The notes under the pieces: model-generated | The model's database searches: none | What the model was told of the DNA's origin: nothing | What the model saw: only the letters and a program-made list of their open reading frames with translations | Position numbers and translations under genes: made by a program | Shown: positions 5,955 through 41,518 of the stretch, piece after piece | How the letters are laid out: every line of letters starts with the position of its first letter | Position numbering within the stretch: position 1 is the stretch's first letter | IMG/VR virus record: IMGVR_UViG_3300043499_000238 | Coordinates: 1-64,000 of that record | DNA length: 64,000 bases | Origin: a virus | Strand: one strand, 5' to 3'

Positions 5955-6223
5955 GCCGCTTCGAGGCGTCGGTACGTCAGGTCGACTTCGGTCGCGAGAT
6001 CGAGATCGGTGTCACCGACACCGAGAACCCGTCGAGGCACATGGTCATCCGTGTGCCCGAGATCCACGTCGATGACGTCGCCGAGATGCTGCAGGCTCTG
6101 CTCGATCAGCTCAACCTCCACCGCAAAGGGGAAGACCCCAAGGACATCACGGCGCCGTCGTTCGACCGGCTCGTCGCGGCGTTCGAGGACGAGGTGAAGA
6201 CCTCACGAGGCGACGACGGGTGA
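5951..6223 (+). CDS. hypothetical protein
   Basis: 90 residues, not recognised. ATG overlaps the previous stop by 4 bases. A beta-rich N-terminal half (FGREIEIGVTDTEN) is followed by a helix VDDVAEMLQALLDQLNL and a charged tail. Confidence 0.6.
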   Translation: MSRFEASVRQVDFGREIEIGVTDTENPSRHMVIRVPEIHVDDVAEMLQALLDQLNLHRKGEDPKDITAPSFDRLVAAFEDEVKTSRGDDG

Positions 6224-6375
6224 CCAAGGTGATCGAGCGCCCACCGATCGTCCATCAGCTACGTGAGTTCCGCAACGGCGTGGTCACCACCAAGTGCGGC
6301 AAGGAGGGCAAGGCCGCCGAGCTACCGCACTCCTCGTGGCACGTCGACATCACCTGCGACGAGTGCTCACCGTGA
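6220..6375 (+). CDS. small Cys-containing protein
   Basis: 51 residues from GTG 6220, which overlaps the preceding TGA. Contains a single Cys mid-protein and a C-terminal CDEC knuckle, so it could bind zinc. The stop overlaps the GTG of the next gene. Its size and perfect coupling on both sides argue that it is real. Confidence 0.55.
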   Translation: MTKVIERPPIVHQLREFRNGVVTTKCGKEGKAAELPHSSWHVDITCDECSP

Positions 6376-30323: not shown

Positions 30324-30737
30324 GTGAAGTACACGGCCACCGAGGCAGCTCGGATCGCTGGCATCTCCTACCGGCAGCTCGACTACTGGGATCGCACTGG
30401 TCTCATCACGCCGAGCACACAGGAGGCGCACGGCTCAGGCACGCGCCGTGCCTACAGCTACCGCGACCTCGTAGACCTGCGCACGGTCAAGGCGATGCTG
30501 GACGCCAACATCGGGCTGTCGGCCGTGCGCAAGGTGATGCTCGTGCTGCAGCAGTTCCCCAGCCTCGACATCCCCAACCTCACTGTCGTGATGATGGGCG
30601 ACAGCGTGCGCCTGTGCTCGCAGGACGAGCTAGTCGAGATCGTGCGCACCGAGAAGGGCATGCTCAACGTGCTGCCGCTGAGTGGCATCACCGAGGCTCT
30701 CGACAACGAGTTGATGGTAGACGTTGTACATCGTTGA
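30324..30737 (+). CDS. MerR-family regulator
   Basis: 137 residues from a leaderless GTG. N terminus YTATEAARIAGISYRQLDYW followed by DRTGLITPS and RRAYSYRDLVDL: a complete MerR winged helix with recognition helix and wing. A long helix, TVKAMLDANIGLSAVRKVML, should form the dimer interface, and the C-terminal 60 residues form a small sensor-like domain (LTVVMMGDSVRLCSQ). MerR proteins act from operators placed in promoter spacers, which is where the GTTGAACGAC element lies in this genome, so it is a candidate controller of that regulon, and of itself. Confidence 0.75.
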   Translation: MKYTATEAARIAGISYRQLDYWDRTGLITPSTQEAHGSGTRRAYSYRDLVDLRTVKAMLDANIGLSAVRKVMLVLQQFPSLDIPNLTVVMMGDSVRLCSQDELVEIVRTEKGMLNVLPLSGITEALDNELMVDVVHR

Positions 30738-36074: not shown

Positions 36075-36415
36075 GAGGCACACCGATCGAGGAGATGCGA
36101 GAAGAGTTCCTCGCATGCCGCGCACTGAGACACGCATGGGAGCCGATCGGTGCAACGCCTGGTGGTCGACGCCCTCAGTTCGGTGAGCTGGTGACGCTGC
36201 GCTGCATCCGCTGCGGTGGGCTGCGCTACGACAAGTTCAGCCGCATCACTGGTGAGCGCCTGGGCAAGCCACAGTACGACCAGGCGCCCGGCTACAAGGC
36301 CAGTGAGTCACACTCGTTCGCCTGGTGGAGAGCTGCGTGGGCCGAGACGATCAGTGACATGATCGTGAGCAGTCACGACAACGTCACACCGATCAAGAGG
36401 GGCAAGGCGTCATGA
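36053..36415 (+). CDS. small zinc-ribbon-like protein
   Basis: 120 residues with GAGGAACCACC upstream. FLACRALRHAWEP and LRCIRCGGLRYDKFSR, a pattern seen in actinophage proteins with one Cys-x2-Cys pair plus Cys and His from the first helix. Confidence 0.6.
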   Translation: MPKHPNLRGTPIEEMREEFLACRALRHAWEPIGATPGGRRPQFGELVTLRCIRCGGLRYDKFSRITGERLGKPQYDQAPGYKASESHSFAWWRAAWAETISDMIVSSHDNVTPIKRGKAS

Positions 36416-36582
36416 CCAAGTATCTCGTCACCTACGTCGTCAGGGGAGCCTTCTCGGTGGAGGTCGACAACCCGTCGGACGACCCGGCGAAGGCCAAGGA
36501 CAAGGTGAGGGATCTCATTCGGGAGATCCCAGGCAGCATGGAGCACGAACTGGTCGTCCACTACCTGGAAGAGTTGTCATGA
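36412..36582 (+). CDS. small hypothetical protein
   Basis: 56 residues: two strands (KYLVTYVVRGAFSVEV), a charged helix, and a strand. Could be a small ferredoxin-like fold. Coupled on both sides. Confidence 0.5.
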   Translation: MTKYLVTYVVRGAFSVEVDNPSDDPAKAKDKVRDLIREIPGSMEHELVVHYLEELS

Positions 36583-36983
36583 GCAGCGACACGATGCTGA
36601 TCACCACCAAGCTGGCCGTGGTCACCTGCTGGTGCGGGATGACGTACGCCATCCCCGAGAAGATCACCACCCGCATGCTCCGTCAGCGTGACAACAACGA
36701 GCGCCAGACCGACTGCTACTGCCCGCTCGGTCATGTGTGGGAGTACACCGGCAAGAGCAAGCTGGACGAGGAGCGCGAGCGCGCCGAGCGCCTGGCGCGC
36801 CAGCTCGCATCGCGCGAGGAGGACGTGCGCGCTGAGCGCGCCTCGCACATCGCCACCAAGGGACAGCTCACCCGCGCCCGCAAGCGCGCTGACCGCGGTG
36901 TGTGCCTGCACTGCAACCGCTCGTTCGTCAACGTCGCCCGCCACATCGAGACCAAGCACCCAGGAGTACTCGCACATGAGTGA
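36579..36983 (+). CDS. coiled-coil protein with C2H2 finger
   Basis: 134 residues. N-terminal TCWCGMTYAIP and YCPLGHVWEY form a zinc ribbon. A long Arg/Glu coiled coil (DEERERAERLARQLASRE) follows, and the C terminus CLHCNRSFVNVARHIETKH is a classic C2H2 finger. It is likely a DNA- or RNA-binding dimer and is widespread in actinophages. Confidence 0.65.
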   Translation: MSSDTMLITTKLAVVTCWCGMTYAIPEKITTRMLRQRDNNERQTDCYCPLGHVWEYTGKSKLDEERERAERLARQLASREEDVRAERASHIATKGQLTRARKRADRGVCLHCNRSFVNVARHIETKHPGVLAHE

Positions 36984-38578: not shown

Positions 38579-38763
38579 TCGACGCACTGGTGCTCTGGCT
38601 CGAACGCATACACGGTCGCTACCAATGGCGCCGGTACTGGCGTGACACTGCACGAGCTGCCCAACGCCAACAGCACGCAGCGCGCATGCGCGAGCACGAC
38701 GCCGAGTACAACCGCAACGCCGCCGCCCTCCACACGGCACAGCGCAAGGCCGCCGAACGGTAA
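38575..38763 (+). CDS. small helical basic protein
   Basis: 62 residues from GTG 38575. An N-terminal hydrophobic and Trp-rich part, MIDALVLWLERIHGRYQWRR, then a strongly basic and Ala-rich amphipathic helix. Could associate with the membrane or nucleic acid. Confidence 0.45.
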   Translation: MIDALVLWLERIHGRYQWRRYWRDTARAAQRQQHAARMREHDAEYNRNAAALHTAQRKAAER

Positions 38764-38768
38764 GCACC

Positions 38769-38861
38769 ATGTACCGCTACGCACACATCGCCGCACTGGT
38801 GATGAGTGTGATCGCAGTACTGGTCTTCCTGGTGGCCTGGCATCACGCCCGCCGTCACTGA
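38769..38861 (+). CDS. 30-residue membrane peptide
   Basis: ATG 38769; hydrophobic core LVMSVIAVLVFLVAW and a His/Arg-rich end. Last gene of the + strand run. Its stop overlaps the end of a - strand gene. Confidence 0.45.
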   Translation: MYRYAHIAALVMSVIAVLVFLVAWHHARRH

Positions 38862-39097
38862 GCACGCTCCACCTCGAACGTCACGCAGCAACTGCCCAAC
38901 GCAGCAGCCAGCCGCCGCCCACTACCGAGTGCAGTGGTCAACCCGCGCCCACGTAACCAACGCACCATGGCCGCCCCGCACAGGGACGCCGTTGGATACT
39001 CACCAAGCTCGTACTCGACGCCGCCCACCGACACGCTCAGTAGGTAGAGGTCGTGGTCGATGAGGATGGACACGGTGGTGGTGGGTAGTGCGTTCAC
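38855..39097 (-). CDS. small hypothetical protein
   Basis: 80 residues from GTG at 39097 (GTG 39073 also possible). The internal SILIDHDLYLLSVSVGGVEY and WLRGRGLTTALGSGRRL look like a genuine alpha/beta protein, and it converges on the + strand run. A TTGACA lies about 35 bases upstream on this strand, without a well-placed -10. Not recognised. Confidence 0.5.
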   Translation of the reverse strand: MNALPTTTVSILIDHDLYLLSVSVGGVEYELGEYPTASLCGAAMVRWLRGRGLTTALGSGRRLAAALGSCCVTFEVERAQ

Positions 39098-39387
39098 ACC
39101 TAGTACAAGGAGCGTTGCGCACCTCGATGTCAACGCCACCCGGCACGCCGCCTAGCTAGCCGGACAGGCCGCCCGTAAGTGCTTCACTGCTCCACAGCCA
39201 CTGCATGCACTACTCACACTCACACACGCACCCGTAGCGCTCACAGCACAACGACGTTGCGCTCACGCACGTTGCTACCTGGTGTGCGTCTACCACTCGC
39301 GCGACAGCCGCGCGCGAGCACTCAGGCCCGCACCCCGCCCCTACCGTCATACCGCAGCAAGCGCTCACGCTGCGTGTGCAACAGCTC

Positions 39388-39414
39388 TAATGAGGAGGCT
39401 GCGCCTCCGCATTA
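39388..39414. repeat. hairpin TAATGAGGAGGC / GCCTCCGCATTA
   Basis: Arms TAATG-A-GGAGGC and GCCTCC-G-CATTA with a TGC loop; 11 paired bases and one mismatch. Confidence 0.6.
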
Positions 39415-39510
39415 GCGCTTAGTCGTACAACGGCGTTGCGCCATTAGGCACTAATGGGCGCTACGCGCGCACGCCATTAGCACTAAGCAGCGGAGCTGCT
39501 AAGCGCTAAT
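39411..39510. repeat. 100-base cruciform: ATTAGCGCTTAG ... CTAAGCGCTAAT
   Basis: A perfect 12-base inverted repeat (39411-39422 with 39499-39510) encloses smaller hairpins: CCATTAG GCA CTAATGG (39441-39457) and AGCAGC GGA GCTGCT (39486-39500). GAGCTGCG / CGCAGCTC (39535-39542 with 39549-39556) follows. Confidence 0.6.
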
Positions 39511-39854
39511 TGCGCAACGCAAGCAAGCAGCGCTGAGCTGCGTAGCAGCGCAGCTCTGCGTTAGCAACGTGCAACGACGTTGCGCATGTCACACCCTGTG
39601 GAGGTTGCGTTCGGCGTAGCCGAGCGCTACCACCCCCCACCCTTAAGTCGGCGGCTGCGCAGCAGTCGGCGGCTGGAGGTAGGCGCAATCCCAGCCACAA
39701 CAGCATCGAGCTACGTACCCCTAGGCCCATTCCTGAGCCGAGATAGCTATTCAGCCGTACCACTAACCACTGCCGTACCCCCGTTAGTTAGCTGGTAGGC
39801 GCAGGCCGTAAGCGGGCGCACTGCTGGGAGTCGTACAACGACGTTGTGGGGAAG

Positions 39855-39860
39855 TAGGAT
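39855..39860 (+). promoter_or_regulatory. -10 box of promoter for 39867
   Basis: TAGGAT, 6 bases before ATG 39867. CAACGACGTTG (39836-39846) sits in the spacer region; the -35 position reads TCGTAC, a weak match. Confidence 0.45.
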
Positions 39861-39866
39861 GTGTGG

Positions 39867-40121
39867 ATGCCACGCACCATCTACAAGTACCCGTTCATGG
39901 ACTCCACCACCATCGAGGTGACTGGCGGCGAGCCGAAGCCGCTCTTCGCTGGGATCGACCCAGCGACGGGAGCGGTAGCCGTGTGGGTGGAGGTGGATCC
40001 CGATGGCGAGGACACCGCTACCTTCTCCTTCGTCGGCACTGGGTGGGAGGTACCGCAAGGGAGTTACGTCGGTAGTTGTATCGCTCCCGGTGGGTTCGTC
40101 TGGCACGTCTATCGTACGTAG
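39867..40121 (+). CDS. DUF7352-like small protein
   Basis: 84 residues; ATG 39867 preferred over GTG 39861 by the leaderless spacing. The layout PRTIYKYPF ... FAGIDPATGAVAVWVEVDP ... FVGTGWEVPQGSYVG ... GGFVWHVYR is that of a short beta protein family common in actinobacteria and their phages (opening IYKYP, closing VWHV). Function unknown. Confidence 0.6.
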   Translation: MPRTIYKYPFMDSTTIEVTGGEPKPLFAGIDPATGAVAVWVEVDPDGEDTATFSFVGTGWEVPQGSYVGSCIAPGGFVWHVYRT

Positions 40122-40398: not shown

Positions 40399-40427
40399 TT
40401 GCTCACTGCTCAACGACGTTGTACTGT
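40399..40427 (+). promoter_or_regulatory. class I promoter with CAACGACGTTG in spacer
   Basis: TTGCTC (40399-40404), 17-base spacer ending in CAACGACGTTG (40411-40421), TACTGT (40422-40427). A GTG follows after 5 bases (40433), opening a 24-codon frame, but the transcript may be non-coding. Confidence 0.5.
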
Positions 40428-40432
40428 GACCG

Positions 40433-40507
40433 GTGACGAAGGGTCTCGACTGGGTTGGCGCTCGGTCGTCCGGTTCCCCTCGTCCCAACCAGGTGGTTGG
40501 CGGCTAG
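40433..40507 (+). other. 24-codon frame or short RNA with long palindrome
   Basis: The gap 40328-40629 (302 bases) has no convincing gene. From GTG 40433 a 24-residue frame is open (KGLDWVGARSSGSP and on). An imperfect inverted repeat of about 20 bases (CAACCAGGTGGTTGGCGG near 40488-40505, its partner near 40524-40543) would fold the RNA. It may be a small RNA or an attenuator. Confidence 0.3.
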
Positions 40508-40540
40508 GCGGCGACGTCGAACCCGCCGACCACCGCCTGG

Positions 40541-40570
40541 TTGTACAACGACGTTGGGACGCTGTAGGAC
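40541..40570 (+). promoter_or_regulatory. class I-like promoter upstream of 40630
   Basis: TTGTAC (40541-40546), 18-base spacer with CAACGACGTTG (40546-40556), TAGGAC (40565-40570). It would give a leader of about 50 bases before the GGGAGG of the secreted protein gene. Confidence 0.5.
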
Positions 40571-41037: not shown

Positions 41038-41270
41038 TGGCCCGTCGAGTGATTCCCGTGACCGAGTACCGCTCGCCGTTCCAGGTGCCGAGGACGTTGG
41101 ACGAGTGGTTGGTGACCGCAGTGGCGGTCGCCTGGCCGCTGCTGTTCATCTTCGTGATCTACCCGGACATGGAGCTGAACGCCTTCGGGCAGGTGATCGC
41201 CTGGGGGGCGGCGTTCGCCGTGCAGTGTGGGATCCTGTTCGCACTGCGCAACGCCAGGCGACACGCCTAG
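41037..41270 (+). CDS. small membrane protein with two TM helices
   Basis: 77 residues; ATG shares a base with the preceding TGA. TM1 AVAVAWPLLFIFVIY and TM2 VIAWGAAFAVQCGILFAL with basic ends. Coupled to the secreted protein, so it may be its immunity or export partner (inference). Confidence 0.6.
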   Translation: MARRVIPVTEYRSPFQVPRTLDEWLVTAVAVAWPLLFIFVIYPDMELNAFGQVIAWGAAFAVQCGILFALRNARRHA

Positions 41271-41280
41271 CATCATCGTT

Positions 41281-41348
41281 GGCGGCCCGGCCGACCGAGG
41301 TTCAGCTCTGGCAACAGACCTAGTTCGTGTAGGTCGAGCCGGGCCGCC
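41281..41348. terminator. bidirectional terminator between convergent genes
   Basis: GGCGGCCCGGCCGACC (41281-41296) pairs with GGTCGAGCCGGGCCGCC (41332-41348) with a single bulge; loop of about 35 bases. It separates the + strand secreted unit from the - strand cassette. Confidence 0.6.
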
Positions 41349-41353
41349 GCCTA

Positions 41354-41518
41354 TTAGAGCAGCAGCAGGATCCCGAGCACGACGGCGCCGATCGCCCACC
41401 ACAAGAGCTGGTTCATCGTGATCCCTGGGTCGTCGCCCTGGTCGTAGACGGGGGGCGGGACGAACGGCTCGTAGTCGATGCCCTGGGCCGCCAACAGGTC
41501 ATCGAGATCGTCGTCCAC
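41354..41518 (-). CDS. tail-anchored membrane protein
   Basis: 54 residues from GTG at 41518. Acidic soluble part (DDDLDDLLAAQGIDYEPF) and a C-terminal hydrophobic helix, LLWWAIGAVVLGILLLL. Last gene of the - strand cassette. Confidence 0.5.
   Translation of the reverse strand: MDDDLDDLLAAQGIDYEPFVPPPVYDQGDDPGITMNQLLWWAIGAVVLGILLLL

Follow-up and report, generated by a model that had tools for sequence, protein, structure and literature searches.

Streptomyces telomeres, found on linear chromosomes and plasmids, are built of 5–8 packed imperfect palindromes that extend over ∼160–300 bp and carry GCA/GGA/GNA triloops; the stems vary by lineage with compensatory changes, while the loops stay (PMC7205883, PMC4513846). 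The GCA and GGA loops, which have sheared G-A pairs, resist single-strand nucleases (PMC4513846, PMC7205883). In phage N4, cruciform extrusion at natural superhelical density requires a C-G closing pair along with the G and the A of the loop (PMC4496689). The hairpin type that concerns us here is, in other words, already known; its three-base loop lets single-stranded DNA fold into hairpins of very high stability.

We describe a block of such hairpins located inside a phage genome. As a whole, the block is best explained as a cis-acting DNA-hairpin site, most likely the main replication origin, an explanation that we put forward tentatively.

Phage genome and position of the block

The window, i.e. 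the whole stretch of 64 kb that was analysed, is the first part of a 111,140-bp virus record. The ends of this record overlap by 148 bp (identity 146/148); therefore, the genome is essentially complete, with a circular map. The phage encodes DnaB, a Toprim primase, a DNA polymerase, a UvsX-like recombinase and a terminase, as well as a tape measure protein and parts of a baseplate. Its terminase is 44–46% identical to the terminases of Streptomyces phages BRock, LuckySocke and pSt2308; judged by sequence, the window phage is a distant relative of the Streptomyces myophages BRock (a described myovirus, PMC7453282) and LuckySocke. No tRNA was found in the window.

In our own gene call, no stretch without genes is longer than positions 38579–39866, leaving aside a 94-aa ORF within it; the block is the core of this gap. 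The 94-aa ORF (38855–39139, − strand), situated left of the array, is conserved in both relatives described below and has the opposite orientation in one of them (G004). A DUF7352 gene (39867–40121, + strand) lies right of the block. The search with the DUF7352 protein produced no relatives, the search of genome contigs with the neighbouring 134-aa protein produced none either, and no phage or plasmid record showed DNA similarity to the block or to the sequence around it.

The long + strand gene run of the left arm covers 0–38.6 kb. The original prediction had put the block where this run ends; the run does stop at ∼38.6 kb, but + strand genes resume at 39867, so that the block does not simply mark its end. 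A convergent gene junction, with a long stem of its own, is located at 41270–41354. Recognisable replication genes are ∼28 kb or more away from the block.

Structure of the hairpin array

The whole structured block, supported by the fold z-score and by homologous blocks in two relatives (G001 and G004), extends from 39383 to approximately 39676. It had been predicted to end at 39583; the block is real, but this end is too short. Folding of the region 39360–39680 gave z-scores of −5.8 (RNA) and −6.5 (DNA), with no shuffled sequence folding equally well, and the fold strength of the two strands is about equal. Three strong triloop hairpins were observed in the block where 0.012 were expected from first-order Markov shuffles. 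The G+C content of the block is 59%, compared with 64% for the remaining intergenic DNA and 66% for the whole genome.

The block contains at least five local palindromes in a row, with CAACGNCGTTG palindromes interleaved. Hairpin 1 (39383–39419) has the loop TGC (GCA on the − strand) and a C-G closing pair. The loop of hairpin 2 (∼39437–39461) is GCA; this is the sole GNA loop in the block that is closed by a G-C and not by a C-G pair. Hairpin 3 (39472–39514) has the loop GGA and hairpin 4 (39527–39559), in its triloop register, the loop GTA, both closed by C-G; RNA folding prefers an alternative register of hairpin 4 with a larger loop. Hairpin 5 (∼39604–39631) has the loop GTA, while its counterpart in G004 has the loop TAC and a stem in which both bases of one pair differ. 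Next to it, alignment of the three blocks identified the conserved right-hand motif CCCCCCACCCTTAAG (39633–39649, + strand).

Several elements of the original prediction were confirmed. The perfect 12-base inverted repeat (39411–39422 with 39499–39510) is present, being formed by the arms of two different hairpins that have the word CTAAGCGCTAAT in common; two CAACGNCGTTG sites are found at 39428 and 39572; and all five CATTAG/CTAATG copies of the 64-kb window fall inside the block. The three nested hairpins, on the other hand, gave way to a row of local hairpins as the main structure.

The words CTAA and TTAG each occur five times in the block of the window, with 0.15 and 0.22 occurrences, respectively, expected in other intergenic DNA of equal length (10 versus ∼0.4 when both are summed). 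Both words are over-represented in the G001 and G004 blocks, too, and may represent a candidate binding or melting motif. We also considered a REP-like dispersed family; it was rejected, as the hairpins are confined to the block.

Homologous blocks in related phages

Close relatives were taken from a terminase search; two of the contigs reach the block, G001 (IMGVR 3300045110_000357) and G004 (IMGVR 3300018083_000074), with terminases 83–85% identical to that of the window phage. In each of them a hairpin array occupies the equivalent position, with the 94-aa gene as its left and the motif CCCCCCACC(C/A)TTAAG as its right boundary. The fold z-scores of these two blocks are −8.2 and −10.4 for RNA and −7.9 and −9.0 for DNA.

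In the alignment of the three blocks the sequences are largely diverged except for islands at CAACGNCGTTG and at the right-hand motif, and the relatives differ in the number and order of hairpins. The flanks allowed one hairpin to be matched between two of the phages: the window has GGTTGCGTTCGGC-GTA-GCCGAGCGCTACC and G004 has GGTTGCTTGCGGC-TAC-GCCGCACGCTACC, with a T-A pair replaced by G-C on both sides and the loop replaced by its own complement. As to stem conservation, two relatives retain the architecture with largely rewritten stem sequences; since the array has been kept despite this rewriting, its architecture looks selected.

Between close relatives, genes on the sides of the block have switched side or orientation (window 36191–36983 versus L018 4069–4676; window 38855–39139 versus G004). 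Two genes located left of the block in the window and in G004 are found right of the block, inverted, in G001. Another element, at 41281–41347 in the window and 2855–2918 in L018, has a 10-bp closing stem (z-scores of −4.3 and −3.1) and the conserved inner sequence ACCGAGG.TCAG.TCT ... GTCGAGCCGG; in the window its place is the junction of convergent genes, in G001 a site next to the block, and it was not found in other loci.

BRock, LuckySocke, pSt2308 and four other distant phages lack an array; at 44–51% terminase identity it is absent. The pattern CCCCCACCMTTAAGYCG matched ten unrelated contigs, all of them lacking both the operator palindrome and a hairpin array. Hairpins of other kinds were seen in distant relatives. 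One of them, G008, has several copies of the palindrome GTGCGTTA-CNG-TAACGCAC (L131 14998–18940, L132 1252). A perfect hairpin with the stem GGGGCGC and a varying triloop is shared by three distant relatives (L116 4900, L122 3837, L130 8134); in two or more of these records the DNA polymerase gene is near it.

The GNA triloop rule

Perfect stems of at least 5 bp with a triloop were collected, and loops GNA or their complements TNC were counted. In the three blocks, 16 of the 22 perfect-stem hairpins have such loops; the corresponding figures for the genome of the window are 13/214 in coding DNA and 6/32 in other intergenic DNA. The difference between the three blocks and coding DNA (Fisher P = 1.4e-12) is descriptive only, as the rule was formulated post hoc and the blocks are related. 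Four of the six exceptions are an operator palindrome (see below) or directly adjoin an operator palindrome or a neighbouring hairpin. When mismatches were allowed, 13 of 14 strong hairpins in the three blocks fitted the rule, all 13 of them closed by C-G; the single exception is an operator palindrome.

In distant relatives none of 23 strong hairpins fitted the rule in 382 kb; at a higher threshold 2/7 fitted in 962 kb, neither of them closed by C-G. Two sequences served as positive controls. In the first 8 kb of the N4 genome the scan marked GTTGC-TTC-GCAAC, AAGAAGC-TCC-GCTTCTT and AAGCTGC-TCC-GCAGCTT, which we take to be mapped early promoters, and at the end of the Streptomyces plasmid SAP1 it marked CCCGC-GGA-GCGGG and CACATCGC-TGC-GCGATGTG.

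Outside the block, the genome of the window phage has one other strong hairpin that fits the rule, a perfect 9-bp hairpin with the loop TTC (C-TTC-G) located downstream of the last called gene (110638–110658 in record coordinates; L004 6638–6658).

DNA structure versus RNA structure

The GNA loop is on the + strand in some hairpins and on the − strand in others, as would be expected from selection acting on DNA and not on one RNA strand. Among the 24 mismatches found in stems there are only three G.T; this lack of preference for G.T, taken along with GNA on either strand, argues for a DNA structure and against an RNA. We consider it probable that the block is a cis-acting DNA site acting via extruded or single-stranded hairpins.

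A structured non-coding RNA transcribed from the block, one of the roles offered in the original prediction, would agree with the fact that all three blocks can fold very strongly as RNA and with the promoter-like sites near the block. Still, the loop rule, the loops on either strand and the scarcity of G.T speak against it: one and the same strand carries GNA in one hairpin and its complement in another. Moreover, the number and order of hairpins vary between relatives, either strand folds about equally well, and Rfam searches at gathering and relaxed thresholds returned nothing credible. We regard such an RNA as improbable. The loop rule itself is suggested as a key that, from sequence only, could separate functional DNA hairpins from RNA hairpins.

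Operator-like palindromes and a candidate binder

The genome has 13 copies of CAACGNCGTTG; nine are intergenic, and six of these nine fall between 39249 and 40556. The operator-like palindrome CAACGGCGTTG (39428–39438) lies between hairpins 1 and 2 and has a counterpart in the same place in G001. A second operator-like palindrome is part of a longer palindrome, GTGCAACGACGTTGCGCATG (39568–39587), the best conserved stretch of the block. The form CAACGACGTTG is found left of the array (39249–39259) and at 39836–39846, 20 bp upstream of the DUF7352 gene. It also makes up the end (40411–40421) of the spacer of a promoter-like site, TTGCTC-17-TACTGT (40399–40427, + strand); G004 has the same promoter-like arrangement with TAGTGT. 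As it fills the end of the 17-bp spacer in both the window and G004, the palindrome has, in addition, the appearance of a promoter operator.

A MerR-like protein encoded at 30324–30737 (+ strand) is a candidate for binding to the CAACGNCGTTG palindromes. It belongs to the MerR family of regulators (E = 6e-16), with HspR as the nearest NCBIfam model, and is conserved in G004.

Directly after the promoter-like site, the sequence 40442–40552 (+ strand) is 82% identical to a sequence of G004 (L019, ∼6180–6300, − strand). The two arms of its long stem change together, from CAACCAGG/CCTGGTT to CAACTAGG/CCTAGTT; on the evidence of sequence this is a candidate small structured RNA.

Possible functions of the block

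The large gap, the strand-exposing design, the loops on both strands and a form conserved without constant sequence make a replication origin the most likely role of the block, and we propose it as possible. The phage's own DnaB, primase and polymerase were counted in its favour. In such an origin the hairpins would be extruded by negative supercoiling or by passing transcription, or would form on exposed single strands; a protein bound to the CAACGNCGTTG palindromes, to the hairpins or to both would mark the site; and the exposed single strands would load the phage DnaB-type helicase and primase. Four observations count against an origin: the replication genes are distant, no initiator was recognised, phages with 44–51% terminase identity have no array, and third-codon-position GC skew, compared by gene strand, gave no support to a bidirectional origin here (skew being a weak criterion in phages). 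More doubtful is the specific proposition that an internal telomere-like array of C-GNA-G hairpins is the origin of a dsDNA actinophage, initiated via hairpins extruded on both strands.

The position of the block, between the end of the + strand run and small genes with promoter-like sites of their own, would also suit an array of transcription terminators or insulators. It would stop the left-arm operon (0–38.6 kb, + strand) before the small genes at 39.87 kb, its hairpins damping antisense transcription that enters from the − strand genes to the right. Palindromes act in either direction, and other intergenic hairpins are slightly richer in GNA/TNC (6/32) than coding ones (13/214). Yet no block hairpin is followed by a T-run, a row of at least five hairpins exceeds what a terminator needs, and RNA terminators explain neither GNA on either strand nor the lack of G.T pairs. 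The true convergent junction, moreover, is elsewhere (41270–41354) and has its own long stem. We find this role somewhat unlikely.

Another alternative, in keeping with rearrangements beside the block, is a site of recombination, inversion or resolution, where strand exchange would use the palindromes as substrates or leave them as by-products. In G004 the orientation of the 94-aa gene is inverted, in G001 two neighbouring genes change side and orientation, and the matched hairpin has a complementary loop in G004. The palindromes possibly caused the rearrangement without being there for it; identical repeats that would fit as crossover sites are lacking, and no site-specific recombinase was found among the scanned part of the gene set. 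This alternative appears unlikely to us. The original prediction had named both an origin and a recombination or attachment site; both are compatible with the loop rule, the either-strand loops and the few G.T pairs, and the evidence does not separate an origin from a recombination site.

Comparison with known systems

The block resembles Streptomyces telomeres in size and make-up, and the telomere trait of packed palindromes with GNA triloops is seen in the blocks (16/22, the SAP1 telomere being the control). It differs from the telomeres in being internal, in having GNA on either strand and interleaved CAACGNCGTTG palindromes, and in lacking the terminal 13-mer CCCGCGGAGCGGG. That the block could be a Streptomyces-type telomere, i.e. 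a true genome end, is extremely improbable: it has genes on both flanks in three genomes, the map is circular (146/148), and no match to Tap/Tpg was found among 46 proteins (part of the gene set) scanned with NCBIfam.

The early promoters of N4 are hairpins with C-GNA-G triloops, extruded from supercoiled DNA (PMC4496689), and the block has the same loop type. N4 stems, however, are 5–7 bp long and the loops are on the template strand, whereas the block has longer, mismatched stems in a dense array with GNA on either strand. Hairpin promoters for a virion-borne RNA polymerase of the N4 kind would account for the common C-GNA-G hairpins, and the block hairpin AGCAGC-GGA-GCTGCT resembles AAGCTGC-TCC-GCAGCTT of N4. 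Such promoters are nevertheless very unlikely here, given the much longer stems of the block and the content of the large proteins scanned, which have tail, Ig-like or baseplate domains or nothing, and no RNA polymerase domain; the PF00940 search was empty, as was its control.

REP/REPIN-type palindromes are, like the block, clustered imperfect intergenic hairpins; unlike them, the block hairpins are confined to one place in the genome and differ from one another in stem sequence. The literature searched, whose coverage was partial, gave no example of an internal two-strand GNA array in a circularly mapping dsDNA phage. A dense array on both strands that is kept through stem turnover would make a natural test case for cruciform-driven initiation.

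Compared with phage and plasmid origins that bear hairpins, the block lacks a recognised initiator, a nearby replication gene and a skew signal. It has in common with them a large intergenic gap, repeated palindromic protein sites and strand-exposing structures. If the block is indeed an origin, Streptomyces telomeres would share their hairpin logic with phage origins.
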